From NCBI GenBank assembly GCA_017559855.1, contig JAFYQP010000019.1, positions 1 to 32,355 on the forward strand: DNA of 32,355 nucleotides, written 5' to 3'. Source of the DNA: Clostridia bacterium. Its GTDB lineage: Bacteria; Bacillota; Clostridia; Oscillospirales; JAAYXM01. The translations under genes were made by a program, and so were the position numbers. The notes under the pieces are model-generated. The model made no database searches. It was not told the DNA's origin and saw only the letters and a program-made list of their open reading frames with translations. This document shows positions 12,075 to 28,721 of the stretch, one piece after another (positions within the stretch are counted from its first letter, which is position 1; each line of letters begins with the position of its first letter).

Positions 12075-13676
12075 TTATTTCACTATTACTTCAACCGTTC
12101 TCGTTTCGGGAATCCACTTAACGTCGCATGCTAAACTTTCAGCGATAAATCTAACCGGGGTGTAGGTTCTGCCGCCCTCAATAAAGGGTGCTGTGTGTAA
12201 GGTTTTAACCTCACCGCCTACCGTTGCGGTTTTGGAGCCGATGGTCATAATGATTTCACCTAAACTCTCGTCCGCGGGAATGATTTTAACCTGGCGAAGA
12301 TTCGGATCCCACTTAACTTCAGCGCCTAAGTTCTCCGCTACAAATCGTGCAGGAAGCATCGTTGAACTGTTTTTGATAATCGGTGCAACGTCGGTTATCG
12401 CATCGCCACCGAATACCTTTGCATTTTTGTTGCCTATCTGTAAAACAATGCCGTCAATGTAGCCTGTCACCTTATTTCCCGTTCCGATTTCTGCAAAACC
12501 GACGCGATAACTCTTACTTACCAGTGCAAATACGCCGTATCCGCAATAAGAGATGGATTCAAACGCAAAATCAACCACTACATTGCCGTTGGTATCCACT
12601 ATGCCACAAAGAGTTTCATATTCATTTCCCTCTTGTGTCTTGTATGCCGCAATATAGCCGTCTGTTAAATAATCAATCTCCTCATACTTATCAAAAGCAG
12701 TTAATCGCTCACCCTTGGTATTAATATAGTGGCCTTCCTCACCGTCTTTTGATACCACAAGCATTTCGTCGTGGATTTTTCGTATATCGTCATACTCTAA
12801 AGGAAGTACTTGGTTAAAATTCTTGTCAACCAATCCGAGTTTTTCGGATGCATCATTTTTCTTTCGAGCAACGAAATACTCATCGGAGAATTCGCTTATT
12901 TCATAGCCCTTTGTATCCGCAGGCTTTAAATCTTTATCAATGAAACTGATTTCGTATTTTTCTTTGCCTGTATCTTTATAAAGAACGAAATACTCTCCTG
13001 CCTTTTCTATGTGGGCAACCGTCTTGTCGGAAAAAAGTACCTTGCCGTTCAAATCGTAAATCTCAAGGCCGTTGTCGTACTGGCTGCAATATAAATAGTT
13101 GTCATTAAGCATATAGATGCCGCCTTCTTTGGTGAAAGGAATAACAACCTTGCCGCTCTTGTTGACTACGCCCACCTTACCGTTATTTCTTGCGCAGAAC
13201 AACTCGTCGCTTATATTAACAACCTCATCATAAGTGCCGAGTGCAATAATTACGTTACCCTTGGTATCGATGATACCGGTCTTCTCTTCGCCGTTCTGCT
13301 GTTTACCTGCGACTACAAAATTTTCACTATAGCCCGGATTTAAATAGTCGTAGGTATAGGGTACGGTAAGATTTCCGTTCTTATCAATAATTCCCCACAT
13401 TCCGTCACGACACGTGAGCAGATAGTCAGCATTTATCGCATCGAGATAGTCGTGCTCAAATGGGATAATAACCTTTCCCGTTTTGTCGACAACACCGTTT
13501 TTATCATTATTGTCGGTGAGGATAAGACCTAAACCATCAATATACTTAATGTTGTGCGTAGCATAGTATGCGTCGGTAGGATTTATGGTCCAAACTATAT
13601 CGGCACTTGTCGCAAATGCTGTTAAGTTGCCAATAAGCATAATGAATGCCATTAAAATTGCCAGTGTTTTTTTCAT
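12075..13676 (-). CDS. Secreted WG-repeat protein with C-terminal stalk (Cu-amine-oxidase-N-like) domain
   Basis: A 533-residue exported protein of unknown function. Residues 1-23 are a signal peptide (MKKTLAILMAFIMLIGNLTA, then FAT). Residues about 40-390 carry at least six WG-like beta-propeller repeats of the form GxxDxxGxxxxPxxYDxxx, for example GVVDKTGKVIIPFEHDY, WGIIDKNGNLTVPYTYDY, LGLVDKNFNQVLPLEYDD and CGIVDTNGNVVVDFAF. Residues about 400-533 match the stalk domain common in Clostridia surface proteins, with two PARFVAENLGAEVKWD-like halves (the second PVRFIAESLACDVKW). The ribosome binding site is AGGAGG seven bases before the ATG. No wall anchor is visible. It is related in architecture to the protein at 26956-28641. 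Confidence 0.85.
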   Translation of the reverse strand: MKKTLAILMAFIMLIGNLTAFATSADIVWTINPTDAYYATHNIKYIDGLGLILTDNNDKNGVVDKTGKVIIPFEHDYLDAINADYLLTCRDGMWGIIDKNGNLTVPYTYDYLNPGYSENFVVAGKQQNGEEKTGIIDTKGNVIIALGTYDEVVNISDELFCARNNGKVGVVNKSGKVVIPFTKEGGIYMLNDNYLYCSQYDNGLEIYDLNGKVLFSDKTVAHIEKAGEYFVLYKDTGKEKYEISFIDKDLKPADTKGYEISEFSDEYFVARKKNDASEKLGLVDKNFNQVLPLEYDDIRKIHDEMLVVSKDGEEGHYINTKGERLTAFDKYEEIDYLTDGYIAAYKTQEGNEYETLCGIVDTNGNVVVDFAFESISYCGYGVFALVSKSYRVGFAEIGTGNKVTGYIDGIVLQIGNKNAKVFGGDAITDVAPIIKNSSTMLPARFVAENLGAEVKWDPNLRQVKIIPADESLGEIIMTIGSKTATVGGEVKTLHTAPFIEGGRTYTPVRFIAESLACDVKWIPETRTVEVIVK

Positions 13677-13719: not shown

Positions 13720-15100
<1,381 letters not shown>

Positions 15101-15131: not shown

Positions 15132-15162
15132 AAAAGACCTGTGATAAAATCACAGGTCTTTT
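15132..15162 (-). terminator. Terminator at the end of the seven-gene operon
   Basis: AAAAGACCTGTGAT pairs exactly with ATCACAGGTCTTTT around a three-base loop, followed by T-rich sequence on the minus strand. It starts seven bases past the amidohydrolase stop and separates the operon from gdhA. Confidence 0.92.
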
Positions 15163-15168
15163 AATTTT

Positions 15169-16035
15169 TTAATCAAGGGGAACTAACTTAAGTGCGTTCT
15201 TGTAGTAGATTTTTTCAAGAACACCCTCCGGCAATGTAATGGAATTTAAGAACTCCTGATGTACGTTGTCGAAGTAGTCACGGCCGTAGAGCACTCTATC
15301 CTGGAACTCGGTCAAGAACTGTACCGCAAATTCCGGATCACGAGAAAGTGCCTTGCAACCGCTGCCTGCGGAGATGTCACAGTAGAGGTTGGGGTACTTG
15401 CGGAGCATTTCAATTAACTTGCCGCCCGGTGCAACCTTTGTTGTGGGATACGGATCTTTATCATAAAGATCGTCACCTGAAATATGTGACCAGAAGCCGG
15501 GTGCGTGACCGATAAAGTTGGTCTCCGGACATTTTGCAATTGCACGCTCAAACGCGTCAATGCCGCCGCCGTACCAATAGTTGGGACGGGGATAATCGCT
15601 ACCACGGTAGAATTCATAGTCGATATGAACGAGAACGGGCAAGCCCTCCTCACCGCAATAACGGTACATACGGATAGCATCCCAATCGTCAAGCATCATA
15701 CGAACTTTAAGTTCACCGCAGACGCGAACACCGTACATATCCTTTGCCGCTTTAAGTTTTGCAATGGCATCGGGACGACGGGGATCGGGAGCGTAACCTA
15801 AAACGAAGCGAGACGGTGCACGTTCGATGTAGGATAAGCATCTTTCAAAAGGAATGGGGCCCCACTGGCAGTTATGAATGGGGGTGCGGCAAAGATATTC
15901 CGGATCATACTCGCTATGGGGTGCTTCCCATGTAAGAAGCCAGGTCTTGTCAATGCCGTATTTATCCATATTGGCAAGGTACTTGTCTAAATCGTGACCG
16001 CACCAATCCGGATGGTTATGAACATCAATAATCAT
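15169..16035 (-). CDS. Amidohydrolase family (PF04909-type) metal-dependent hydrolase
   Basis: A 288-residue predicted TIM-barrel hydrolase, the last gene of the operon. Metal-site candidates are H6/H8 in MIIDVHNHPD, H137 in VLVHIDY, H177 in NFIGHAPGFW and D253 in YGRDYFDN; this order is that of the amidohydrolase-2 family (lactonases, decarboxylases, hydrolases). The start is the ATG at 16035 after GAGGTG; a GTG three codons earlier lies within that sequence. No signal peptide. It is separated from the aminotransferase gene by 67 bp holding a perfect 16-bp hairpin. Lactone hydrolysis after a Gfo/Idh sugar oxidation is one reasonable role, but decarboxylation or amide hydrolysis cannot be excluded. 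Confidence 0.78.
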   Translation of the reverse strand: MIIDVHNHPDWCGHDLDKYLANMDKYGIDKTWLLTWEAPHSEYDPEYLCRTPIHNCQWGPIPFERCLSYIERAPSRFVLGYAPDPRRPDAIAKLKAAKDMYGVRVCGELKVRMMLDDWDAIRMYRYCGEEGLPVLVHIDYEFYRGSDYPRPNYWYGGGIDAFERAIAKCPETNFIGHAPGFWSHISGDDLYDKDPYPTTKVAPGGKLIEMLRKYPNLYCDISAGSGCKALSRDPEFAVQFLTEFQDRVLYGRDYFDNVHQEFLNSITLPEGVLEKIYYKNALKLVPLD

Positions 16036-16054
16036 TATATTCACCTCATATGAA

Positions 16055-16087
16055 CATACCCATAGAAGTTAAACTTCTATGGGTATG
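16055..16087 (-). other. Intercistronic perfect hairpin in the operon
   Basis: CATACCCATAGAAGTT and its exact complement around one central base. It lacks the T-run of the other terminators here. It lies between the DegT gene stop and the amidohydrolase ribosome binding site, where it could stabilise the upstream mRNA, act as a processing site or partly terminate. Confidence 0.7.
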
Positions 16088-16102
16088 AAACTTAGCAATT
16101 AC

Positions 16103-17344
16103 TTACTTTGCGTAGTGTGCACAAATCTTCTTGAATGCGTGGATGATATCGTCGATATCCTGCTCAGTGTAGAACTCGCTGATATTTAAGCGGATAGAGG
16201 TCTCAAGAATTTCTTCTGCAACCGGGCAATCGCCACTTGCATACTTGATCTCACGGCCGTATTCCGGTAAGTTGAAAGGAACGTGTGTGCCACGGAAGCC
16301 TTCTAAGTTCTTGAACATATCATACTCATATACACAAGCCGGGAGGTAACCAACGGAAGCCGGGATACCCTCAGCGGTAAGAGCAGCAGCGAAATCTGCA
16401 CGGTTAACGCCTGCAGCCTTCTCATCAATACGGAACATGTAGAACCAGTAAGAAGACTTGTTGCCTTCCTTAACTTCGTGAATCTGGATGCCCGGAAGAT
16501 CCTTGATACCTGCGGTTAAACGCTCACCGAGAACGTTACGGCGTTCGCAAATCCAGGGGAGACGATCGAGCTGAGCGATAGCAACAGCACCGGTAAGTTC
16601 GTTCATACGGTAGTTGGGAGCGATGTACTCGATCTTACGGAGTTCCTGCGGGTTCTTGGAGAAACGGTTGTAGTTCTTGTCTGCAAACTTGTGAGCAACT
16701 ACGTAGTCCTCTTCGTTGTGCATAAGAATCATACCGCCATCACCTGCGGAGATGTGCTTGAAGTCGTTTAAGCTGAAGCAACCGAAGTCACCGATAGTAC
16801 CTGCACGACGGCCCTTGTAGAAGCACTCGTAACTCTGTGCACAGTCTTCGATAACCTTGATGCCACGGGGACGGCAGAGTTCCATAATCGGATCCATCTC
16901 AGCCGGGTTACCTGCAAGGTGAACAACAACTACAGCCTTGGTCTTGTCGGTAATCTTTGCAGCGATGGTCTCTGCGGTCATGTTGTAGGTATGTGGATCG
17001 AGATCAGCAAATACCGGAATAGCGTTCTGGAAAACGATACCGATAATGGAACCCATGTCGGTAATCGGGGAGGTGATAACCTCATCACCGGGGCCAACAC
17101 CTGCAGCACCAAGTGCTACGTGGATAGCGGAAGTACCGGAAGAGGTAGCAACCGCATACTCTGCACCGTACATGGTCTTGAATTTGTCAAGGAACTGCTT
17201 AACCTTGTTGCCGAACCAATAGAATAATGTGTTCTGCTCAAGTGCTTCCTTTAACTGCTGAAGTTCCTCGTCACCGAAACGCTTGCCGGTGCCGAAGGGA
17301 GTGGTTTTAACTTTGTCGCCGCCAAAAATAGCTAACTTTTCCAT
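16103..17344 (-). CDS. DegT/DnrJ/EryC1-family PLP-dependent aminotransferase
   Basis: A 413-residue cytoplasmic aminotransferase of the sugar/cyclitol type. The N-terminus LAIFGGDKVKTTPF matches the StsC/AHBA-synthase-like branch (GGxxVR near the start). PLP-site motifs are TSSGTSAIH (68-75), ITDMGSIIG, EDCAQSYE (D167 binds the pyridine nitrogen) and the Schiff-base lysine K196 in FSLNDFKHISAGDGG. Enzymes of this family transfer an amino group between glutamate or glutamine and a keto-sugar or keto-cyclitol. The ribosome binding site is AGGAG nine bases before the ATG. The upstream Gfo/Idh gene ends 23 bp away, a pairing known from amino-sugar pathways (for example NtdA/NtdC). The direction here, synthesis or deamination, is not known. 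Confidence 0.88.
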   Translation of the reverse strand: MEKLAIFGGDKVKTTPFGTGKRFGDEELQQLKEALEQNTLFYWFGNKVKQFLDKFKTMYGAEYAVATSSGTSAIHVALGAAGVGPGDEVITSPITDMGSIIGIVFQNAIPVFADLDPHTYNMTAETIAAKITDKTKAVVVVHLAGNPAEMDPIMELCRPRGIKVIEDCAQSYECFYKGRRAGTIGDFGCFSLNDFKHISAGDGGMILMHNEEDYVVAHKFADKNYNRFSKNPQELRKIEYIAPNYRMNELTGAVAIAQLDRLPWICERRNVLGERLTAGIKDLPGIQIHEVKEGNKSSYWFYMFRIDEKAAGVNRADFAAALTAEGIPASVGYLPACVYEYDMFKNLEGFRGTHVPFNLPEYGREIKYASGDCPVAEEILETSIRLNISEFYTEQDIDDIIHAFKKICAHYAK

Positions 17345-17367
17345 TTTCTTTTTCTCCTTTTTATGTA

Positions 17368-18261
17368 TTAGTCATTAATGCCGCAAATTGCGACTTCCTT
17401 ACCGGTTTCATAAGACTCCTTAACCGCATTTAAAAGTGCTACGGTCTTGTAGAGTTTCTCATGTGATACAGGAATAACACCTGTTCTTAAAGTATTGACA
17501 AACTCGTCAACGCCGAGGCGATAAACGAAGGATATGTCAAGTTCACGGTACATAACGCCCTTGTCACCGATAACAAGTACTGTGTTCTGTGCTGCCTCTG
17601 CAAGGAAGTTAAGTACTACCTGATAGTTGTCGTACTTAAGAACTGCAACAACGTCGCCGTTGTTCTCGGTAGCCATAACAGACTTCATATCGTAGCCGAA
17701 TGCGGTAGCCGCCATTTCAGCAAGATGTCCTGAATAGAAGTAGATGCCGCCGTAATCGTTAACGAGGGTTGCCGGGAAGTTCATCATAGCACTTCTGATC
17801 TTACCGATTCTTGCAGCCTCCGGATTCTCACGTGCATTCTTAACCATTAAAACGTCATATGCAAACTTACAGGTGGAGCCGCCGGTTAAGATTGTGTTGT
17901 ACTTTTTGGAAGCCTCCATAACCATCTTACAGTCCTCGTTGGAGATGGTGAAGGGCTTGTCAAGCCATACCGGAATACCACGCTCTAAGAAAGGCATTGC
18001 ATACTGTGCATGAAGTCCGCCGTGACGGAAAACGATCATAACAGCGTCTACCTTATCGTAAAGGTCCTCTACCTTTTCTGCAATGTAATCAATCTTGCCG
18101 TTTGTAGCAACCTCTTCGGTACGCTCTTTTTCTAAACCGAAGATTGCGGTAACACGGCAATCCGGATAGCGATAGTTGCCATTTTCATCAGGAATATTGA
18201 TGAGTTTTGAAAACGCATCAGCATGACTGTTGTCGGAACCGACAATACCAATTCTAAACAT
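17368..18261 (-). CDS. Gfo/Idh/MocA-family oxidoreductase (operon member)
   Basis: A 297-residue, rather short family member. The nucleotide-binding loop is atypical (RIGIVGSDNSHADAF, residues 3-17), with GSDNSHA where most members have GxGxxG/A. The EKP motif appears as DKP at 101-103 (WLDKPFTIS), which occurs in other members. The C-terminal domain lacks the usual GGGxLxxxGxHxxD string and instead has NDYGGIYFYSGHLAEMAATA. The start is the ATG at 18261, nine bases after AGGAGG; a longer open frame to 18330 has no signal. A dehydrogenase acting on a sugar or keto-sugar is likely, together with the DegT enzyme. A divergent non-oxidoreductase role is possible given the altered motifs. Confidence 0.8.
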   Translation of the reverse strand: MFRIGIVGSDNSHADAFSKLINIPDENGNYRYPDCRVTAIFGLEKERTEEVATNGKIDYIAEKVEDLYDKVDAVMIVFRHGGLHAQYAMPFLERGIPVWLDKPFTISNEDCKMVMEASKKYNTILTGGSTCKFAYDVLMVKNARENPEAARIGKIRSAMMNFPATLVNDYGGIYFYSGHLAEMAATAFGYDMKSVMATENNGDVVAVLKYDNYQVVLNFLAEAAQNTVLVIGDKGVMYRELDISFVYRLGVDEFVNTLRTGVIPVSHEKLYKTVALLNAVKESYETGKEVAICGIND

Positions 18262-18301
18262 TTTCTTTTTCCTCCTCATAGTAATCTTAGGATATACTTT
18301 G

Positions 18302-18330
18302 ATATTAGACCATATTTTACTTAAAAACAA
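18302..18330 (-). promoter_or_regulatory. Possible internal promoter before the operon's Gfo/Idh gene
   Basis: On the minus strand TTGTTT (18330-18325), a 17-bp spacer and TAATAT (18307-18302), within the 93-bp gap after the M55 gene. This gap is the longest in the operon after the one between the first two glycosidase genes. Confidence 0.3.
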
Positions 18331-18354
18331 TGGACTATTTTACAATTTGACGGT

Positions 18355-19137
18355 TTACCAGAACATGATATCGCCGTAGTTTCTGATTCTGTCCACGGTA
18401 AATCGTGCGGTACGGGCATCAATTCGGTCAAACTCGGGATGACGCTCCATTGTAGCGTCACAGTAATCGGTGCGGGTGTGCACGAGTTTTACCTCAAGGG
18501 GATAGATCATCTTAAAGGGTTTTACCTTATCCTTTAAAGTCATTCCCTTCTTTGCTGCCTCGTAAATAAGTTTCTCTGCCTCATCATTGGGAATACACTC
18601 CGCCTTGTTTCGTCCGATACCACGTTTAACAACCGCGGTTGCAATATCATTGCCTAAAAACTCTCTCGCTTCTTCACAGGCGGCAACGTCACCGGATACC
18701 ATTACAAAAGGAACGCCAAACTCACCTGCAAAAAGAGCACCCTGTGCAACCTCGCCGCAAGGTCTTCCGTTGATTGTGTATTCAAACCATTGAACAGAAC
18801 TTTGGGTATGGTCTAAAAATCCGTTCATAGTGCCGGGCATTGCGTGAATGCCCACCTCCATCATAAGGTCAACGTTTCCGGATCTGACCTCATCCTGCCA
18901 TGCTTTACCGGGAAGTTCCGCACGCGGATCAATATTCTTCGGATCGAAGTTAATACCTGTAGAATGGCCGTCAAGAACAAGAACTCTTGTTGCACCGCCG
19001 TCGAAACAGCCGGCGATTGCTGCATTGGTGTCAGCCTCTAAACGGCGACATGCGTAAACGTAGCCCTCGCCTTCCATTTGTTCAATGGAATCAACGCCGG
19101 AAATACCCTCAAGGTCTGTCATGAGTAAAACAGTCAT
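18355..19137 (-). CDS. M55-family D-aminopeptidase (DppA-like)
   Basis: A 260-residue zinc-dependent aminopeptidase. Bacillus DppA cleaves N-terminal D-amino acids such as D-Ala from D-Ala-D-Ala and assembles as a decamer. The family ligands are all recognisable: D8 and E10 in LLMTDLEGISGVD, H58 in VLVLDGHST, H98 in EVGIHAMPGTMNGF and E129 in PCGEVAQGALF. H110 in FLDHTQ corresponds to the proposed catalytic histidine. The ribosome binding site GGAGG lies in the final codons of the preceding glycosidase gene, and the start is three bases after its stop, so translation is coupled. Its place among glycosidases suggests a substrate with D-amino-acid or peptide decoration. Use on D-Ala peptides from peptidoglycan turnover is an alternative. 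Confidence 0.9.
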   Translation of the reverse strand: MTVLLMTDLEGISGVDSIEQMEGEGYVYACRRLEADTNAAIAGCFDGGATRVLVLDGHSTGINFDPKNIDPRAELPGKAWQDEVRSGNVDLMMEVGIHAMPGTMNGFLDHTQSSVQWFEYTINGRPCGEVAQGALFAGEFGVPFVMVSGDVAACEEAREFLGNDIATAVVKRGIGRNKAECIPNDEAEKLIYEAAKKGMTLKDKVKPFKMIYPLEVKLVHTRTDYCDATMERHPEFDRIDARTARFTVDRIRNYGDIMFW

Positions 19138-19140
19138 TTT

Positions 19141-21321
19141 CTATTCCTCCAATAAAATTAATGCGTATGCCGCAAACGTATCTGCAGGCACGTTAATTTT
19201 CACCTCTCCGTCATTGCGAGTAAATTCAAGATCTACCTCACCCTCGTATTCAGGCGTCTGCAGGTATACACGTTTTATTTTTTCGCATTTGACGGATATT
19301 TCCATTGCAGGGAGGCGTTTTGCCCCCTCACAAAAGTTTATGAGTTTATCGCTGTGTGCAATAAGGGTTTCATCTCTCGGAATCGTTCCTTCAACGTTAC
19401 ATATGTTGATTGCAATTCCCTTTGGCGTGTTGTACGCACCAAGCAAAAGTTCCTTCTGTACGCACTCAATCTCAACCTGACACGCACCCACTAAAAGCCT
19501 GAGCAATGTACCGGTATGTGAGATCTGATGGTCATAAAGCCATGGCGTTGCCTCCACAGGGGCGGGATTTTGAACCCTGCGATTAGACCATATTGTAGGT
19601 TGGAACTCACTTTTTAACGGCTTTGCGGAAATCCATATTATTTCGCCCTTGCCAACACTCGCCCTGATGCCTACGGTTTTACCATCAAGTACGGCAACTG
19701 CTTCTCCTCCGTCAAATGCAAGAAGGGAGTTCATATCGGTAAGTGTTACGCTCTTGCCGTTGTAATTTACGGTAAGATTTGCAGTTTGCTCGTAAACTTT
19801 GGCTTTCGCCGGAATACCTAACGCTTCAAGCACATAGTTTGCATCCCGCGTGCGGCCCAGAGCATCCATTGTGGCGAAGTCGCCGTAGATTATAAGTTTT
19901 CCGCCGCCGTTTGCGTATTCTTTAAACTTTTTAAGTTCATCGTCATTTACCATTGCCATAAAAGCGACAAGTAAATTTTTATGTGTTAAAAGTTTATCTA
20001 CCGAGTCATCCTCAAAAGCCATATTTGTACCGAGTTTTGCAAAACTTGACGCCTGAAGTGCCCCGATAAATGGGTAGGAATATTTTTCCGCCATAACAAG
20101 TTGCGGTGCGGAAAAATCCCTCGTTTGCATTGAGTAATAAAATGCGATGTCCTCTAACCGTTTCGGCTCGGTATAGGCTAAAATGTTTTTCTTCTCAAAA
20201 TCACGGTAAGGCTTTTCAATAACTGTGATATCCTTACCCTCAAATGTTCCGGAATAGAGTTGCCCCCAAGTGCGGGAAAGTGCCCAGGCAAAATATGTGT
20301 CATCCTGATTTTCCGGATAGAAGTAGGAAATCGACGGGACGCCGTTTCGCTCACCTGCGGAAAAGCGATGGATCGCCTCCGCCATAAATTCCGGGTAAGA
20401 TGCCCGCATAATCGCCGAAAAACAATTTTCCTGCATTATCATATCCCATTGGTCAAGACAAGAGTCAAAACCTGAGAAAGTGGGGTTCCATTTGAGAATG
20501 TCCGATTGATAATTAGGACGTCCGATTTCGTGCAGCCCCATGCTGTCATATAATTTTGTTAAATCACGGTAGAAACGTTCCGTACTGTCTTTCTTAAAGC
20601 GGAGCCATGCAATAAATACAGGATTGGAGTAATCGTTATAAAACTCATCCCAACCCGAAGGCTCCGGAAGGTCATAACCATACTCCTCTTTAAACAGACG
20701 TCTGCAATGCTCACAGGTGCAAGCGTGGCCGTCACCGAACCATTGCACGTCGTCGTTTTCCATACCGTCAAAGGGCACTTCCTCTAAAAGTTCTTTTATA
20801 TAGCGGAAGTATGCGTAACGATAGTCGGGATTGTTAAAGCAAAAGGCGTTTGTTTTATATACCGTGTCTGCAACCTTTCCAGTGCGGCCGTCTATCTGGA
20901 GCATCGTGCGAAGTTTTTTGCCGTAAATCTCCGGCTCGCCCACAAGAAATCGTGGCACCTCAATCCAATTTTCAACACTTGACGTAAAATGTGTGTATGA
21001 ATCGATATCACCTTGAAAACGCTCCCAACCCTCCGACCTTAAAAGGTCGTGGACAAGACAGGCACTATGGTGCTCATAAACCTCAATACCGCACTCGTGG
21101 AATGCTTCAACGTATAGTTTAAATGCTTTTTTTAGTTTCTCCCAATAAGGGAAGAAGCCGAACCGAAAATGGGTAACGGAAAAGTTTTCCGCAATGGTTA
21201 CGCCGTTTTTCTTAAATTCTTCTGCACGACGCAGGAAATCTTCCTTGGTATATTCGAAGATTTCCTTGTCATTTAACCAGAACGAGGAATAATTTTCCTC
21301 CCAATTTACTGTTTTTTTCAT
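19141..21321 (-). CDS. Putative intracellular glycoside hydrolase (GHL6/GH42-like), paralogue C
   Basis: A 726-residue protein, third of three tandem paralogues. It has an N-terminal TIM-barrel-like region (about 1-380), a GATase-like trimerisation-type domain (about 385-505) and beta-rich C-terminal parts. Conserved points are SVTHFRFGF, WIEVPRFLVG, IDGRTGK, the acidic motif ENDDVQWFGDGHACTCEHCR, YGYDLPEPSGWDEFY and FEGKDIT. The acidic motif reads NDD here and DDD in the two other copies. There is no signal peptide, so it acts inside the cell. The start is the ATG at 21321, one base after the stop of paralogue B, with GGAGA in that gene's last codons; an in-frame ATG 26 codons earlier would overlap paralogue B. 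The M55 gene begins three bases after it. Family assignment is by motif likeness only. Confidence 0.7.
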   Translation of the reverse strand: MKKTVNWEENYSSFWLNDKEIFEYTKEDFLRRAEEFKKNGVTIAENFSVTHFRFGFFPYWEKLKKAFKLYVEAFHECGIEVYEHHSACLVHDLLRSEGWERFQGDIDSYTHFTSSVENWIEVPRFLVGEPEIYGKKLRTMLQIDGRTGKVADTVYKTNAFCFNNPDYRYAYFRYIKELLEEVPFDGMENDDVQWFGDGHACTCEHCRRLFKEEYGYDLPEPSGWDEFYNDYSNPVFIAWLRFKKDSTERFYRDLTKLYDSMGLHEIGRPNYQSDILKWNPTFSGFDSCLDQWDMIMQENCFSAIMRASYPEFMAEAIHRFSAGERNGVPSISYFYPENQDDTYFAWALSRTWGQLYSGTFEGKDITVIEKPYRDFEKKNILAYTEPKRLEDIAFYYSMQTRDFSAPQLVMAEKYSYPFIGALQASSFAKLGTNMAFEDDSVDKLLTHKNLLVAFMAMVNDDELKKFKEYANGGGKLIIYGDFATMDALGRTRDANYVLEALGIPAKAKVYEQTANLTVNYNGKSVTLTDMNSLLAFDGGEAVAVLDGKTVGIRASVGKGEIIWISAKPLKSEFQPTIWSNRRVQNPAPVEATPWLYDHQISHTGTLLRLLVGACQVEIECVQKELLLGAYNTPKGIAINICNVEGTIPRDETLIAHSDKLINFCEGAKRLPAMEISVKCEKIKRVYLQTPEYEGEVDLEFTRNDGEVKINVPADTFAAYALILLEE

Positions 21322-21322
21322 T

Positions 21323-23509
21323 TTATTTCTCCAAAACGATAAGTGCGTAGGAGGCAAATGTACCTGCAGGGATGGCGAAGGTTGCCTTGCCGTCTGCATA
21401 AGTTACTGCGATCTTTACATCGTCTTTAAGTTCCGGACTCTTAAGAGTAGCAACGGTTGCACCGTCACACTTAACGGAAACCTTAACCTCCGGCATTTTC
21501 GGAGCATCTGCCACAAACGAGGGGATAAGGTCTGCATGTGTTACCATCTCTGCCTTTTCGGAGATCGCACCCTTGATATTTGAAATGTTGATTGCAAGAC
21601 CTGCCTCGGTATTGTATGCACCAACAAGGATGTCACCGTTTTCACATTCAATATCATACATACGCTCACCAACGAAAATATCTAAAAGTGCACCACTGTG
21701 CGCCGCCTGATGTGCACGGAGATCCGGTTGTGCTTCTTCCGGGGTGGGATTTGCAACACGGCGATTTACCCAGATGGTTTTCTGATACTCGGAAACCGCA
21801 GGCTTTGCAGCAACCCAAATAAATTCACCGTCGCCAAGTTTTGCACGGATACCAACGGTCTTGCCACCGATTGTCGCAACACTCTCTGCACCTTCGAATG
21901 CGAGATACGACTTCATCTCGGTAATGTTTACGCTCTTACCGTTGTAATTTACGGTCATATCGGAAGTAGCATCAAAATCTTCAGCGGTTGCATTAATTCC
22001 GAAGTAGGATAAAAGTTTGTTAACGTCGCGTTTTGCATTGGTTGCATCGACGGTAGCAAAGTCACCGTATGCGATAAGTCTGCCACCACGGTTTACGTAT
22101 TCCTTGAATTTAGAAAGTTCCTCTTCGTTAACCATCGCCATGAAGGGAACCGCAAGGACTTTATGCTCTAAAAGTTCCTCTACGCTATCGCTTTCAAACG
22201 CCATATTTGTTCCGAGCAACGCATGACAGGAGGCCTGCATTGCACCAAGATACGGGAGGGAGTACTTTTCAGCCATCTCGTACTGAGGAGCAGAGAAGTC
22301 TCTTGTCTGCATAGAGTAGTAGAATGCAAGGTCCTCTATCTTCTTGGGAGATGAGTATGCAAGGATATTCTTTGACTCAAAGTCACGGTACTTTTTCTCA
22401 ATACTTGTGATGTCCACACCCTCGCAAGTTCCGCAATAAAGTTGGCCCCAGGTACGGGAGAGGGCAAAACTGTAATATGTAGAGTCCTCACGGTCAGGAT
22501 AGAACATTGACATAGACGGAACGCCGTTCTTCTCTGCTGCTGCAAAGCGGTGAACCGCCTCAACCATAAAGTCGGGGTAGGAATTTTTCATAACCGCACT
22601 GAAGCAGTTTTCCTGAAAAATAAATGTCCACTGATCCATACAGGAGTCAAAGCCGGAGAATGTGGGGTTCCATTTGAGAATGTCGGACTGATAATTGGGG
22701 CGACCGATATCGCCTCTGCCGATACTCTCGTAAAGTTTGGTTAAATCACGATAGAAACGCTCGGTACTCTCTTTCTTAAAGCGAATCCAAGCAACGAATG
22801 CGGGATTGTTGTAATCGCCGTAGAATTCATCCCACTTATCGGGATACGGAAGGTCATAACCGTACTGCTCCTTAAAGAGTTTGCGGCAATGCTCACAGGC
22901 ACAGGCATGACCGTCTGCAAACCACTGTACGTCATCATCCATAATGCCGTCGAAAGGAACGATTTTAAGTTCCTCGGTACGGTACTTAAAGTACATTTCA
23001 CGATAGTCCGGGTTGTTGTAGCAGAAAATGTTAAGGTCATAGATGCTGTTTGCACGTTTGCCCGTTCTGCCGTCTACCTGGAATAAGGTGTCAAGTTTCT
23101 TGCCATAGACCTCCGGATCGTTAAGCAAGAAGCGGGGTACCTCAATCCAATTTTCAACACAGGACTTGAAATTTGTGTAAGAGTTGATATCATCCTCAAA
23201 TCTCTTCCATCCCGCAGATCTTAAAAGGTCGTGAGAAAGGGAGGAGGAGTTATGCTCAATTACCTTGATGTTATACTTATGGGCAGCATCACAGAACATT
23301 TTAAATGCGTTGTGAATTCTGTCCCAATACTTGATAAAGCCCATACGGAAATGGGTTAAGGTAAAGTTAATTGCCATTGTGATACCGTTGTCGTAAAGTT
23401 CTTTTGCCGCACGGTCAAAATCCTCCTGAGTCCACTCGAAAATCTGTTCATCAGAGAACCAGAACCATGTAAATTTTTCTTCCCAAGGTGTTTTAGTTTT
23501 AATTTCCAT
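21323..23509 (-). CDS. Putative intracellular glycoside hydrolase (GHL6/GH42-like), paralogue B
   Basis: A 728-residue cytoplasmic protein, collinear over its full length with paralogues A and C. Motifs include LTHFRMGF (H53), NWIEVPRFLL, VDGRTGKRAN, FDGIMDDDVQWFADGHA followed by CACEHCRKLF, KYRDFESKNILAYSSPKKIE, the trimerisation-type domain with MVNEEELSKFKEYVNRGGR, and the C-terminal TFASYALIVLEK. The acidic DDD(V)QW motif is a candidate catalytic or metal site, and the CxCxxC cluster may bind a metal. The start is the ATG at 23509 after GGGAGG. It has its own 126-bp upstream gap carrying a copy of the motif found before paralogue A, so it may be transcribed separately as well. The substrate is unknown. 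Confidence 0.7.
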   Translation of the reverse strand: MEIKTKTPWEEKFTWFWFSDEQIFEWTQEDFDRAAKELYDNGITMAINFTLTHFRMGFIKYWDRIHNAFKMFCDAAHKYNIKVIEHNSSSLSHDLLRSAGWKRFEDDINSYTNFKSCVENWIEVPRFLLNDPEVYGKKLDTLFQVDGRTGKRANSIYDLNIFCYNNPDYREMYFKYRTEELKIVPFDGIMDDDVQWFADGHACACEHCRKLFKEQYGYDLPYPDKWDEFYGDYNNPAFVAWIRFKKESTERFYRDLTKLYESIGRGDIGRPNYQSDILKWNPTFSGFDSCMDQWTFIFQENCFSAVMKNSYPDFMVEAVHRFAAAEKNGVPSMSMFYPDREDSTYYSFALSRTWGQLYCGTCEGVDITSIEKKYRDFESKNILAYSSPKKIEDLAFYYSMQTRDFSAPQYEMAEKYSLPYLGAMQASCHALLGTNMAFESDSVEELLEHKVLAVPFMAMVNEEELSKFKEYVNRGGRLIAYGDFATVDATNAKRDVNKLLSYFGINATAEDFDATSDMTVNYNGKSVNITEMKSYLAFEGAESVATIGGKTVGIRAKLGDGEFIWVAAKPAVSEYQKTIWVNRRVANPTPEEAQPDLRAHQAAHSGALLDIFVGERMYDIECENGDILVGAYNTEAGLAINISNIKGAISEKAEMVTHADLIPSFVADAPKMPEVKVSVKCDGATVATLKSPELKDDVKIAVTYADGKATFAIPAGTFASYALIVLEK

Positions 23510-23584
23510 GTTAATTCCTCCCGACCGAATTGCGGTCTAAATTCCGCTTTGAAGATAGCGGTGCTTACACTTTGCTATTTTAAT

Positions 23585-23609
23585 ATTACTATATATATTT
23601 CGCTTTGTA
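23585..23609 (-). promoter_or_regulatory. Shared 25-bp upstream motif, copy 2 (before paralogue B)
   Basis: Plus-strand reading is ATTACTATATATAT, TT, CGCTTTGTA. It matches 21 of 25 positions of the copy at 25865-25889. It lies about 76-100 bp upstream of the paralogue B start. No convincing -35/-10 pair can be laid over both copies, so it may be an operator rather than a core promoter. Confidence 0.6.
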
Positions 23610-23635
23610 TATCGCCGTTTTTTCAACTTATATCG

Positions 23636-25813
23636 TTATTTTTCAATAACTATCAGGGCATATGATGCAAATGTGTCCGCCGGTATGATAAATTCAGCCA
23701 CGCCGTCGGAATAGGTGACGTCTAACTTAACATCCTCTGCGTTTTCAGGTGTTTTAAGAGTTGCACTCTCGGCTCCATCGCATTTTACGGAAACCTTAAT
23801 CTCCGGAAGTTTTTCTGCACCCTCGACAAAGGACGGTATCACGTCAGTATGTGCCGCCATGACAACTTCTTTCGGGATGGTATCACTGACATTTGCAATG
23901 TTTACGCAAAGTCCCGCTTCTGTGTTGTATACTCCGGCGAGAAGTTCATCCATATCGCACTTGATTTCATACTTACGCTCTAATAATGTGTTCAAAATCT
24001 TACCGCTGTGTGAAAGTTGGTAATCACGAAGCCACGGTTGACTCTCCGCAGGTTCGGGATGCTTTTCGCGGCGGTTGGACCAGATGGACTTCTGAAACTC
24101 GCTCTCTGCGGTGCGTGCGGAAATCCAGATGATTTCACCCTTTCCGACTTTCCCGCGAATACCCACGGTCTTGCCGTTCAAAGTAGCGATCGCCTCACCA
24201 CCCTCAAATGTGAGGAAAGTGTTCATACCGCAAACCGTGTCCTCTTTACCGTTATAGTTAAGGGCAATATCGCCTGAGAGCGTGCAAACGCTCGCCTTGG
24301 CATTTACGCCGAGTTTTGCCAGAGTATCGCTCGCGTCACGTGCCTCATTTGTCTCATCAACGTTTGCAAACTCACCGTAGATAATGAATTTACCGCCGTT
24401 TTCGGCATACGCCTTAAAGTTTGCAAGTTCTTCATCGGTAATCATGCCGGAGAACGCACTAACAACCGCATCGTGCTTTGAAAGTTCTTCAAAGCCCTTA
24501 CTGTCCATGACCATACCAACACCAAAGCGTGAGTAAATCGCCGCCTGCATTGCACCGAGACAGTTGAGGGAGTAACGCTCCGCCATTTCATATTGAGGTG
24601 CAGTGAAATCACGAGTCTTTGTGGAGTAGCAGAAGGCAACGTCCTCAATCTTCTTGGGAGATGAGTATGCGGAAATATTAGCACTCTCAAAGTCGCGGTA
24701 TTTCTTCTCCATACCGGTAATGTCCATGCCCTCGCATGTGCCTGTATAAAGTTGTCCCCAGGTACGGGAAAGTGCCCAACCGAAGTACACACTATCGGGA
24801 CGGTCGGGGTAGAACATCGACATTGAGGGGATGCCGTTAACCTCTGCGTTTGCAAAGCGGTGAATTGCCTCAACCATAAAATCAGGGTATGAATATCTCA
24901 TAATTGCACTAAAGCAGTTTTCTTGGAAAAGGAACTGATAACGGTCCATGCAACCGCCAAGGCAAGAAAGGCTGGGTGCCCATTTAAGCACATCGGAGGA
25001 ATAGGTGGGACGAATCATGTTAAAGCCGAGGCTCTTATACATATCGTCAAGTTCCTTCCACCACAATTCGGTGCTTTCTCTCTTGAATCTACGCCATGCG
25101 ACGTATGCGGGGTTTGAGTAGTCATCGTAAAACTTATCCCAATCCGAGGGTTGCGGCAAGTCGTAGCCATATTTCTCCTTAAAGAGTTTGCGACAATGTT
25201 CGCAGGTACAAGCATTACCCTCGCCAAACCACTGAATGTCGTCGTCCATAATGCCATCAAAAGGCACTTTTTCAAGTTCCATTGTGCGGTACTTTTTATA
25301 TGCGTCTCGATACTCCGGATTATTATAGCAAACAACGTGACAGTTATATACCGTGTTTGCGATTTTACCGGTTCTTCCGTCTATCTGCAACATATCGGAA
25401 ATTTTATGACCGTAAATTTCTGGTCTGTCAACGAGAAAACGCGGCACTTCTATCCAATCCTCGACAGTTGCCTTAAAATGGGTAAAGGACGCGATGTCAT
25501 CTTCTAATCGCTTAAAACCCTTGCTCCATGTAACATTGTGAATAAGTGATGCTGAGTTATGCTCTATAACCTTAATGTTATATTTGTGGCACGCATCGCA
25601 AAGTTTTTTAAGAGCTGTATGAATATCGTCCCAATATCTGTAGAAGCCCAGGCGAAAATGTGTTAAAGTAAAAACGATTGCATGGGTGATACCTCGATCG
25701 TTAAAATCCTTGGCGCGATTGTCAAAATCCTCCTGAGTAAAATTACGGATTTCATCGTTTGAAATCCACGTCCAGGTAAATTTTGCCTCCCACGGTGATT
25801 TTTTATTATTCAT
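23636..25813 (-). CDS. Putative intracellular glycoside hydrolase (GHL6/GH42-like), paralogue A, first operon gene
   Basis: A 725-residue protein without signal peptide. The region about 10-380 looks like a TIM barrel of the hypothetical glycosyl hydrolase 6/GH42-like type. It has H52 in LTHFRLGF, D190-D192 in FDGIMDDDIQWF, and C202/C204/C207 in NACTCEHCRKLFKEKYGYDL. Further strands carry E298 (FQENCF) and D337 (MFYPDRPDS). Residues about 388-505 resemble the GATase-like beta-galactosidase trimerisation domain (MITDEELANFKAYAENGG). A beta domain (510-580) and a beta-sandwich tail ending TFASYALIVIEK follow. The start is the ATG at 25813, seven bases after AGGAGG. These enzymes probably cleave an imported glycoside. 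The catalytic pair is not certain, and a non-hydrolytic role cannot be excluded. Confidence 0.7.
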   Translation of the reverse strand: MNNKKSPWEAKFTWTWISNDEIRNFTQEDFDNRAKDFNDRGITHAIVFTLTHFRLGFYRYWDDIHTALKKLCDACHKYNIKVIEHNSASLIHNVTWSKGFKRLEDDIASFTHFKATVEDWIEVPRFLVDRPEIYGHKISDMLQIDGRTGKIANTVYNCHVVCYNNPEYRDAYKKYRTMELEKVPFDGIMDDDIQWFGEGNACTCEHCRKLFKEKYGYDLPQPSDWDKFYDDYSNPAYVAWRRFKRESTELWWKELDDMYKSLGFNMIRPTYSSDVLKWAPSLSCLGGCMDRYQFLFQENCFSAIMRYSYPDFMVEAIHRFANAEVNGIPSMSMFYPDRPDSVYFGWALSRTWGQLYTGTCEGMDITGMEKKYRDFESANISAYSSPKKIEDVAFCYSTKTRDFTAPQYEMAERYSLNCLGAMQAAIYSRFGVGMVMDSKGFEELSKHDAVVSAFSGMITDEELANFKAYAENGGKFIIYGEFANVDETNEARDASDTLAKLGVNAKASVCTLSGDIALNYNGKEDTVCGMNTFLTFEGGEAIATLNGKTVGIRGKVGKGEIIWISARTAESEFQKSIWSNRREKHPEPAESQPWLRDYQLSHSGKILNTLLERKYEIKCDMDELLAGVYNTEAGLCVNIANVSDTIPKEVVMAAHTDVIPSFVEGAEKLPEIKVSVKCDGAESATLKTPENAEDVKLDVTYSDGVAEFIIPADTFASYALIVIEK

Positions 25814-25864: not shown

Positions 25865-25889
25865 ATTACCATATATATACTGCTTTGTA
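25865..25889 (-). promoter_or_regulatory. Shared 25-bp upstream motif, copy 1 (before paralogue A), with possible promoter
   Basis: Plus-strand reading is ATTACCATATATAT, AC, TGCTTTGTA. On the minus strand TTTACA (25899-25894 region), about 17 bases and TATATG could form the operon promoter overlapping this motif. The motif is 52-76 bp upstream of the start. Confidence 0.6.
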
Positions 25890-26955: not shown

Positions 26956-28641
26956 TTAGTTTGTGTATAATAATACGGTCCGCAAGTAGTTATTCCAATC
27001 AACTAACACATTAAAACTGTCCGAAACCGCTCTCACCGGTACCATTGTGCGTCCTCCAACCAATTGCGGCTCAACATCCAATACGATTTTTTCTCCGTTT
27101 TTTATCAGAATATTGCTTCCTATCTGCATCTTTATGGTAACGTCTTTACCTTTTGCAGTAATTGTTTGAGTAGTTCCTTCCCAATCGACCTGTGCACCCA
27201 ACTCTTCAAAAATTGCTCTCATCGGTACAAGAGTTCTCCCATTCTTAATTACTGGCAACACGTCAAATTCTATTCGCTTACCGTCCAACTCTACTTTGAC
27301 TCCACTATCTGCGAAAATTACAAAATCGTAAGTCATCGGATTGCGGGAGTGCACTCTTTTTACCGCTCCGCTAATTATGCCATTTTTAATCTCGTCCGCA
27401 CTTCCACTTATTATAGATGAATCACTGTAGACTAAATTAAATTGGTCATCTAAAACAGTTCCTTGCACTCTATGATACTTATATCCTGTAAAAATGTCAG
27501 ATGTAGTCATCGTTTTATGTGTTTTCAAATTTCCCATATTTATAAAAATAATCTGATTACCTTTTGTCAGAACTGCAAATTTTCCGGTATTTGATATATA
27601 TCCGTACTGCATAGGATTTTTATCCGCAGTCCAAACCGGATTTATACTATATTCCAACGGCATAATATATTTTCCGTTTATATCAACGATACCGTATTTG
27701 TCGCCAATCGAAACAACTATGTTGCTTGATACAGATGACGGGAAGATATAATCCCATTTTCCGAAATCAACCATAATTTTCCCGTCGGATGCGTAAAGTG
27801 CCGATGTCCCGTTTTGTTTCTTCACAGTAAAATATTTACTGTAATATGTTCTTATTTCTTGAATATTAATACTCTCATCTTCAAACACCGTTTTATCAAT
27901 TGCTATATTAAAAACTTTTTTATTGCACATAATCAGATTACCGTCTAATTTTATTTCTCCGGAACCGTTAAACTCCGCAACTTTTTTGCCATTTATATCA
28001 AAGCATTTTATTTCTCCATTAATTGAGTAGACTATATACTTGTTATTTGCATACACCAGTCCCCTAAAATCTACGTTTTCACTTGCAAGGTTGCGAGTAA
28101 TATCTTGTCCTTTATAATTGAAAATCGCTTTTCCGTTTTGTATTCCCGTCCCTTGCTCACTCCGAACACCATAAAACGTTTCACTTATGGGATATAGGTC
28201 TACATCATCAGGCGTTATATCCTTGTATTTTTCATCCATTAATCTCGCACGATTGGATATTTTATCAATTATCATATAATATGTCCCGTGTTTTTCAACA
28301 TATAGAGATCTTGTGTCTGCACGATTTGTTGATGTCAAACACTTATAGAATATTTTCCCCGTACGGTCTATTAAAACTGTTTCGCTATCAGCCGTAGTTA
28401 CTGCACAAAATCCATTTTTGAAATAACTTGCATTTTTAAACTGTGGTGCAATAACCCATTTTTTATTTGTATCTACAAACCCCCATCGTCCCGTCGCCTT
28501 ATCTTTTGTAGCACACAAGTTCTCACCAAACTCACCAGCATCTGCAAACATCGACATATCCACTATTGTATAGTTGTTTGCTGAAAAAGCATTACCGCAT
28601 AAAACCAAGCAAACTAGTAAAAAACTTATTGTTCTTTTCAT
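26956..28641 (-). CDS. Secreted WG-repeat/stalk-domain protein
   Basis: A 561-residue exported protein. Residues 1-20 are a signal peptide (MKRTISFLLVCLVLCGNAFS, then ANN). The middle (about 45-440) holds degenerate WG-type repeats, for example WGFVDTNKKWVIAPQFKNAS and YGIVDINGKYIMPLEYS, consistent with a beta-propeller. Residues about 450-561 form the stalk (copper-amine-oxidase-N-like) domain: VIKNGRTLVPMRAIFEELGA with QVDW, and QLVGGRTMVPVRAVSDSF. The start is the ATG at 28641, seven bases after AGGAG; an in-frame ATG five codons earlier overlaps that sequence. Codon use is more A/T-rich than in the housekeeping genes nearby. It is divergent from a ribbon-helix-helix gene. The architecture repeats that of the protein at 12075-13676; function unknown. 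Confidence 0.83.
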   Translation of the reverse strand: MKRTISFLLVCLVLCGNAFSANNYTIVDMSMFADAGEFGENLCATKDKATGRWGFVDTNKKWVIAPQFKNASYFKNGFCAVTTADSETVLIDRTGKIFYKCLTSTNRADTRSLYVEKHGTYYMIIDKISNRARLMDEKYKDITPDDVDLYPISETFYGVRSEQGTGIQNGKAIFNYKGQDITRNLASENVDFRGLVYANNKYIVYSINGEIKCFDINGKKVAEFNGSGEIKLDGNLIMCNKKVFNIAIDKTVFEDESINIQEIRTYYSKYFTVKKQNGTSALYASDGKIMVDFGKWDYIFPSSVSSNIVVSIGDKYGIVDINGKYIMPLEYSINPVWTADKNPMQYGYISNTGKFAVLTKGNQIIFINMGNLKTHKTMTTSDIFTGYKYHRVQGTVLDDQFNLVYSDSSIISGSADEIKNGIISGAVKRVHSRNPMTYDFVIFADSGVKVELDGKRIEFDVLPVIKNGRTLVPMRAIFEELGAQVDWEGTTQTITAKGKDVTIKMQIGSNILIKNGEKIVLDVEPQLVGGRTMVPVRAVSDSFNVLVDWNNYLRTVLLYTN

Positions 28642-28654
28642 TGTACCGCTCCTC

Positions 28655-28721
28655 ATATGTTATATTTTATGTTACACATAATAACATATATTTGCAATAA
28701 TTGTCAACATATATTATATGT
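28655..28721. promoter_or_regulatory. Palindrome-rich divergent control region
   Basis: ATATGTTAT (28655-28663) and ATAACATAT (28681-28689) form an inverted repeat. ACATATA-T-TATATGT (28707-28721) is a second palindrome with the same ATATGT half-site. They flank the promoter of the WG/stalk gene and the region ahead of the RHH gene, suiting an operator for the small ribbon-helix-helix protein. Confidence 0.5.
28678..28707 (-). promoter_or_regulatory. Promoter of the WG/stalk gene
   Basis: On the minus strand perfect TTGACA (28707-28702), an 18-bp spacer and TATTAT (28683-28678). Confidence 0.7.

Follow-up and report, generated by a model that had tools for sequence, protein, structure and literature searches.

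A seven-gene locus with three tandem GH151-like glycosidases in a Clostridia bacterium and its possible role in the breakdown of amino-sugar glycosides

What compound could call for three copies of one glycosidase, a D-aminopeptidase-like protein, an oxidoreductase, an aminotransferase and an amidohydrolase in a single run of genes? The question is raised by contig JAFYQP010000019.1 of the Clostridia bacterium assembly GCA_017559855.1, analysed over its full 32,355 bp (the window) and belonging to a 1.58-Mb genome that is 96% complete. Seven minus-strand genes, spanning positions 15169-25813, encode in order glycosidases A, B and C, an M55 peptidase, a Gfo/Idh oxidoreductase, a DegT aminotransferase and a PF04909 amidohydrolase (Table 1). 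An earlier note made from the sequence had placed these genes here, and the open reading frames (ORFs) and translations confirmed it. The gaps that it gave were reproduced on recomputation (B-C, 1 bp; C-M55, 3 bp; Gfo-DegT, 23 bp), and the others are 126 bp (A-B), 93 bp (M55-Gfo) and 67 bp (DegT-amidohydrolase). Each enzyme is in a known superfamily, and no paper on the combination was found in the literature searched. The reading that we favour, with confidence somewhat short of even, is that the seven genes form one functional group, through which gut Clostridia break down, inside the cell, glycosides with amino-sugar and D-amino-acid parts. The gene content, the conserved catalytic residues and the recurrence of gene subsets in other lineages were observed directly, and the fold was taken from a predicted model.

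Glycosidase family and candidate catalytic acids

Glycosidases A, B and C are mutually 60-61% identical, which chance does not explain; a tree resolves them as a lineage-specific tandem triplication (support 100/100). The earlier note had labelled them GHL6/GH42-like. In Pfam searches, PF14871 (GHL6) matched none of the three at E 0.01, and no protein of the genome exceeded its 35-bit cut-off; four of 11 family members matched it weakly, short of the gathering score (best E 0.0027). The only Pfam domain seen in these glycosidases is the GH42 trimerisation domain PF08532, which exceeds its cut-off in B only. A structure model of B built from a 37-sequence alignment reached a predicted local distance difference test score (pLDDT) of 94.7 and a predicted template modelling score of 0.94, with a GH42-type three-domain fold. 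An alignment of the three paralogues alone gave an unusable model (pLDDT 44). The structure prediction that the earlier note had proposed thus returned a GH42-type fold with confidence, but the conserved acids described below are GH151-like, so these are not ordinary GHL6 or GH42 enzymes.

Assignment to a family by fold score alone was tried and rejected, since the Z scores were nearly tied for GH151, GH42, GH164 and an Ignavibacterium beta-1,2-glucosyltransferase. Against the GH151 structure 6tvk, the model of B gave a VIA-align Z of 22.2 (root-mean-square deviation 3.7 over 575 residues), with Z of 22-23 for GH42 and about 21 for the GH164 beta-mannosidase Bs164. The overall fold and the trimerisation domain are shared with GH42 beta-galactosidases and Bs164, whereas the conserved acids separate the families. 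D192 and E300 are invariant in all 37 sequences and lie at the ends of strands beta-4 and beta-6, respectively, in the model of B, provided that the barrel strands are numbered from residues 13-18 and that the short strand 159-162 is left out of the barrel (our own reading of the DSSP output). In GH151, the corresponding acids are D154 at beta-4 and E235 at beta-6 of 6tvk (PMC10154630). In GH42 and GH164, both catalytic residues are Glu, the acid/base at beta-4 and the nucleophile at beta-7 (for Bs164, PMC7105311), and neither Glu was found at those strand ends in the window enzymes.

A GHL6-type protein of the same genome (G000:C1) links the window glycosidases to GH151. It aligns to the glycosidase family profile over 471 columns with 99.4% probability, pairing D192 and E300 with an Asp and a Glu, and it matches 6tvk at E 2e-15, where the Asp of its GIFLD motif falls on the nucleophile D154 (a number obtained through a 29-residue offset between the deposited sequence and the model). 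D192 is thereby connected to D154 through G000:C1, while E300 is placed only by its strand and by its alignment to that protein. The family profile itself reaches 6tvk in the middle domain only (E 0.0096).

The position of the conserved acids suggests that A, B and C are retaining alpha-glycosidases of the GH151 type; GHL6 is a distant relation only. Like the GH151 alpha-L-fucosidases (ALfuk2 of Paenibacillus thiaminolyticus, 6tvk; Blon_0346; Mfuc3), they combine a barrel, a GH42-type middle domain and a C-terminal sandwich, with an Asp ending beta-4, a Glu ending beta-6, no signal peptide and a distant GHL6 relation. They differ in their 13% identity to 6tvk, their scores under the Pfam GHL6 cut-off and their gene neighbours. 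In addition, no genome is reported to have more than two GH151 genes (PMC10154630), in contrast to the three tandem copies here. The clade lies below the GHL6 cut-off and lacks the GH42 catalytic pair but has conserved acids placed as in GH151. Fucose and rhamnose isomerases of the standard routes were sought in the genome (96% complete) and not found.

Partner enzymes and their recurrence in other Clostridia

The family assignments of the other four products held, as PF04951, PF01408, PF01041 and PF04909 all exceed their gathering cut-offs. In the M55 protein, D8, E10, H58, H98, H110 and E129 align with Bacillus subtilis DppA (1hi9) at its catalytic and metal-site positions. Unlike DppA, the window protein scores far below the equivalog level (86.8 bits against a cut-off of 430 for NCBIfam NF058634) and is encoded among sugar enzymes, not with a dipeptide transporter. 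The amidohydrolase residues H9, H11, H140, H180 and D256 (numbered from GTG 16044), which make up the HxH, two further His and Asp of a PF04909 metal site, are invariant in 11 orthologues. No close match to a characterised PF04909 lactonase or decarboxylase was found among solved structures, the best profile match being to the uncharacterised 3irs (E 0.044). Inspection by eye revealed no hydrophobic N-terminus in the seven products, in keeping with the claim that none has a signal peptide.

In the favoured pathway, a small glycoside taken up by the cell would be released or trimmed by the three GH151-like enzymes, acting as retaining exo-alpha-glycosidases with the trimer architecture of GH42, D192 as nucleophile and E300 as acid/base. 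M55 would take a D-amino acid off the glycoside by amide hydrolysis, the DegT and Gfo/Idh proteins would act on the amino group of the sugar or cyclitol so released, turning it first into a keto form and then into a hydroxyl, and the PF04909 enzyme may hydrolyse a lactone or amide product. We infer the substrate, the order of these steps and the action of all seven enzymes on one compound.

Surveys of DegT orthologues, of glycosidase relatives and of the genome itself bear on this proposal. The named related records are metagenome-assembled genomes of Clostridia and Oscillospiraceae, many of them from herbivore guts. Among 390 other genomes of the class, a DegT orthologue was present in seven and an amidohydrolase orthologue in 17, with both in six (P = 1.8e-8, without phylogenetic correction). 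A same-strand M55-DegT-Gfo triplet with gaps of 10 and 14 bp occurs in G336, and its order is repeated in three genomes of the same genus (G135, G299 and G237). A genome of another family (G265) has DegT-GDSL-Gfo-Gfo-amidohydrolase-M55 followed by an AraC gene, with neighbours overlapping or at most 43 bp apart. M55 adjoins DegT in G011, and an amidohydrolase lies beside DegT in G138. G008 has an amidohydrolase (AH2)-DegT-Gfo array and G003 has Gfo-AH2-DegT-AH2, a longer version of which occurs in G005. Association with the glycosidase was seen in RGIG3898 (Clostridia; loci L100 and L107), where glycosidase-AH2-Gfo-DegT share one strand (gaps in L107 of 43, -4 and 14 bp), and in locus L108, which reads alanine racemase-glycosidase-M55 with gaps of 9 and 21 bp; the DegT gene of L107 and the M55 gene of L108 were revealed by tblastn. 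On the basis of these surveys, the M55, Gfo, DegT and amidohydrolase genes make up a genuine module that recurs, to which the glycosidase is loosely tied in at least three lineages, this one included. The neighbourhood search that the earlier note had suggested, under which homologues never found together elsewhere would have counted against it, thus gave no such outcome, as subsets recur in other Clostridia families, among unrelated bacteria of guts and digesters.

Two details of these loci bear on the substrate and on the direction of the pathway. The presence of alanine racemase beside M55 in L108 favours a substrate that contains a D-amino acid, which may be D-alanine. In L161-L165, the gene directly ahead of the amidohydrolase encodes an AraC regulator, and these regulators belong to one group with 45-54% identity. 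Such an arrangement is typical of inducible catabolic operons and speaks for breakdown rather than synthesis. More generally, AraC regulators of one related group adjoin amidohydrolase or M55 genes in loci L158, L160-L165 and L200 of other Clostridia.

Synthesis was also considered. DegT/Gfo pairs are typical of nucleotide-amino-sugar synthesis, and the best NCBIfam matches of the two proteins here, although far under cut-off, are LegC/PseC and UDP-GlcNAc 3-dehydrogenase. The pair would then build an amino sugar of a surface glycan, with M55 and the amidohydrolase tailoring it and the glycosidases remodelling the product. A Gfo/Idh dehydrogenase beside a DegT protein with its pyridoxal phosphate (PLP) lysine is also known from NtdA/NtdC and WbpE/WbpB. 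However, no nucleotide-sugar or kanosamine genes are present here, and neither the set nor the recurring operons contain a nucleotidyltransferase, glycosyltransferase or flippase. The M55 and PF04909 partners, the AraC regulators before the amidohydrolase elsewhere and the tandem exo-glycosidases without signal peptides all suit breakdown better, and we regard synthesis as the least probable of the readings considered.

Scarcely more probable is aminocyclitol catabolism, in which a freed inosamine or similar compound would be handled as in rhizopine use: DegT would run the scyllo-inosose aminotransferase reaction in reverse, and Gfo/Idh would serve as inositol dehydrogenase. DegT matches the glutamine:scyllo-inosose aminotransferase structures 5w71, 2c7t and 7b0d at E of about 1e-45, and Gfo/Idh weakly resembles an NCBIfam inositol dehydrogenase model. 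A second cluster of this genome (L182 5286-10982, G000:C53) places a PF01261 TIM-barrel isomerase beside a Gfo/Idh and a DegT gene; two PF04909 genes are divergent from these, and the cluster has no glycosidase or M55. Nucleotide-sugar aminotransferases nevertheless match the window DegT equally well, none at an equivalog cut-off, and the neighbourhood of the gene set showed no genes of inositol catabolism. Elsewhere in this genome, L184 (2238-5024, G000:C43) holds three tandem PF04909-like genes, and the family is expanded in the lineage.

One pathway or two adjoining units

The strongest rival to a single pathway holds that two independent units have come to adjoin, whether by chance or under a common induction: a glycan unit of ordinary kind, whose three GH151-like alpha-glycosidases would act on oligosaccharides of plants or the host, and a conserved M55-Gfo-DegT-amidohydrolase unit for another compound. 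We consider this less probable than the single pathway. Several observations weigh in its direction or otherwise against the favoured reading. The complete seven-gene set was found in this genome only, and the closest genomes with both glycosidase and cassette (G003 and G005) carry them on separate contigs. M55-DegT-Gfo units (the f64 genomes) and Gfo-AH2-DegT units occur without a nearby glycosidase. Conversely, most of the 37 glycosidase loci have no cassette and lie near other genes, such as those encoding PTS EIIC, GH35, GH78 with an MGH1-like enzyme, or acetyl xylan esterase with a major facilitator superfamily (MFS) sugar carrier. The enzymes of L107 and L108 come from other subfamilies (AH2, 29%; DegT, 30%; M55, 35% identity). 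As the earlier note had said, no transporter or regulator lies near the window gene set. Its proposal of an intracellular amino-sugar and D-amino-acid pathway therefore stands in part, in that subsets recur together but the full set does not and most glycosidase relatives are elsewhere.

Transcription signals were also weighed. A 25-bp element, TACAAAGCNNWATATATATRGTAAT, has exactly two copies in the 1.58-Mb genome (at most three mismatches), one before A and one before B, and it was not found upstream of the glycosidase genes of relatives. Its retention despite the divergence of A and B (60% identical) suggests that it is functional, as a promoter or operator. Being common to A and B and not to other genes, it is consistent with two units, as is the wider gap before Gfo/Idh than before M55. 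In addition to the single terminator claimed after the last gene, which is present as a terminator-like hairpin of 14 pairs, a previously unlisted perfect stem lies between DegT and the amidohydrolase, where the gap folds at -25.1 kcal/mol; it is predicted to be an attenuator or processing hairpin. Both this stem and the copy of the element before B favour more than one transcript, so that a single transcript across all seven genes is doubtful; spacing points to B-C-M55 and Gfo-DegT as probable transcription units. On the other side, C and M55 are so close that their translation is probably coupled, and the glycosidase recurs independently with M55 in L108 and with AH2-Gfo-DegT in L107.

With these points weighed, the single catabolic pathway is still preferred, tentatively. 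Genes for M55, Gfo/Idh, DegT and PF04909 proteins recur together, in some loci alongside a GH151-like glycosidase and in one alongside alanine racemase, and this points to a common substrate with sugar and D-amino-acid parts. If correct, the set would supply concrete enzymes for a route, undescribed in the literature searched, by which bacterial or host glycoconjugates serve as nutrients. A wider proposal, that this is an undescribed and widely distributed pathway of gut and digester Clostridia for D-aminoacylated amino-sugar glycosides, with a new glycosidase family related to GH151 but outside it, is rather unlikely.

Coordinates, gene starts and flanking features

Table 1. Features of the locus in window coordinates
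Feature	Position	Strand	Basis
25-bp element TACAAAGCAGTATATATATGGTAAT upstream of A; possible promoter or operator	25865..25889	-	genome-wide pattern search; upstream-region alignment
Glycosidase A, 725 aa, GH151-like	23636..25813	-	ORF and translation; 60% identical to B; A/B/C clade support 100/100
25-bp element, second copy TACAAAGCGAAATATATATAGTAAT, in gap before B	23585..23609	-	same pattern search and alignment
Glycosidase B, 728 aa; candidate nucleophile D192 and acid/base E300	21323..23509	-	ORF; model; invariant columns; alignment to GHL6/GH151 relatives
Glycosidase C, 726 aa; start 1 bp past B stop	19141..21321	-	ORF; paralogue identity; spacing
M55 D-aminopeptidase-like protein	18355..19137	-	PF04951, 201 bits (cut-off 25); alignment to 1hi9
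Promoter-like TTGTTT-17-TAATAT in 93-bp gap before Gfo	18297..18330 (approximate)	-	by eye; weak; absent from consensus scan list
Gfo/Idh-type oxidoreductase	17368..18261	-	PF01408 (N-domain), 53 bits; probable ATG 18261; longer ORF begins 18330
DegT/DnrJ/EryC1/StrS aminotransferase, PLP lysine K196	16103..17344	-	PF01041, 284 bits; K196 within NDFKH
Perfect 15-bp inverted repeat, 3-base loop, no T run, between DegT and amidohydrolase	16055..16087	-	fold
PF04909 amidohydrolase	15169..16035	-	PF04909, 60 bits; invariant columns in 11 orthologues
Intrinsic-terminator-like hairpin, 14 pairs, past amidohydrolase	15132..15162	both	hairpin scan
NADP-glutamate dehydrogenase, next gene downstream past terminator	13733..15082	-	NCBIfam PRK09414, 749 bits (cut-off 536)

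The reading frame puts the start of glycosidase C at its ATG rather than at the ORF start (21399). Gfo/Idh most likely starts at its ATG, behind an AGGAGG ribosome-binding site, and not at the TTG at 18330; for the amidohydrolase, the ATG at 16035 behind GAGGTG is the most likely start.

The NADP-glutamate dehydrogenase gene is probably separate from the seven-gene set, although its product may recycle the transaminase donor. A glutamate dehydrogenase gene also lies near DegT in G138 (locus L158, 11316-12593).

Relatives of B were not found on plasmids. In loci L122, L123, L124 and L128, the glycosidase relatives are preceded by genes for an uncharacterised 317-aa family with no Pfam match, for acetyl xylan esterase and for a divergent MFS sugar carrier. 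On either side of the region lies a protein that combines WG repeats with a copper amine oxidase N-terminal-like domain, two in all (12075-13676 and 26956-28656, minus strand), and a 5S rRNA gene lies close to the contig end (32191-32307, minus strand).

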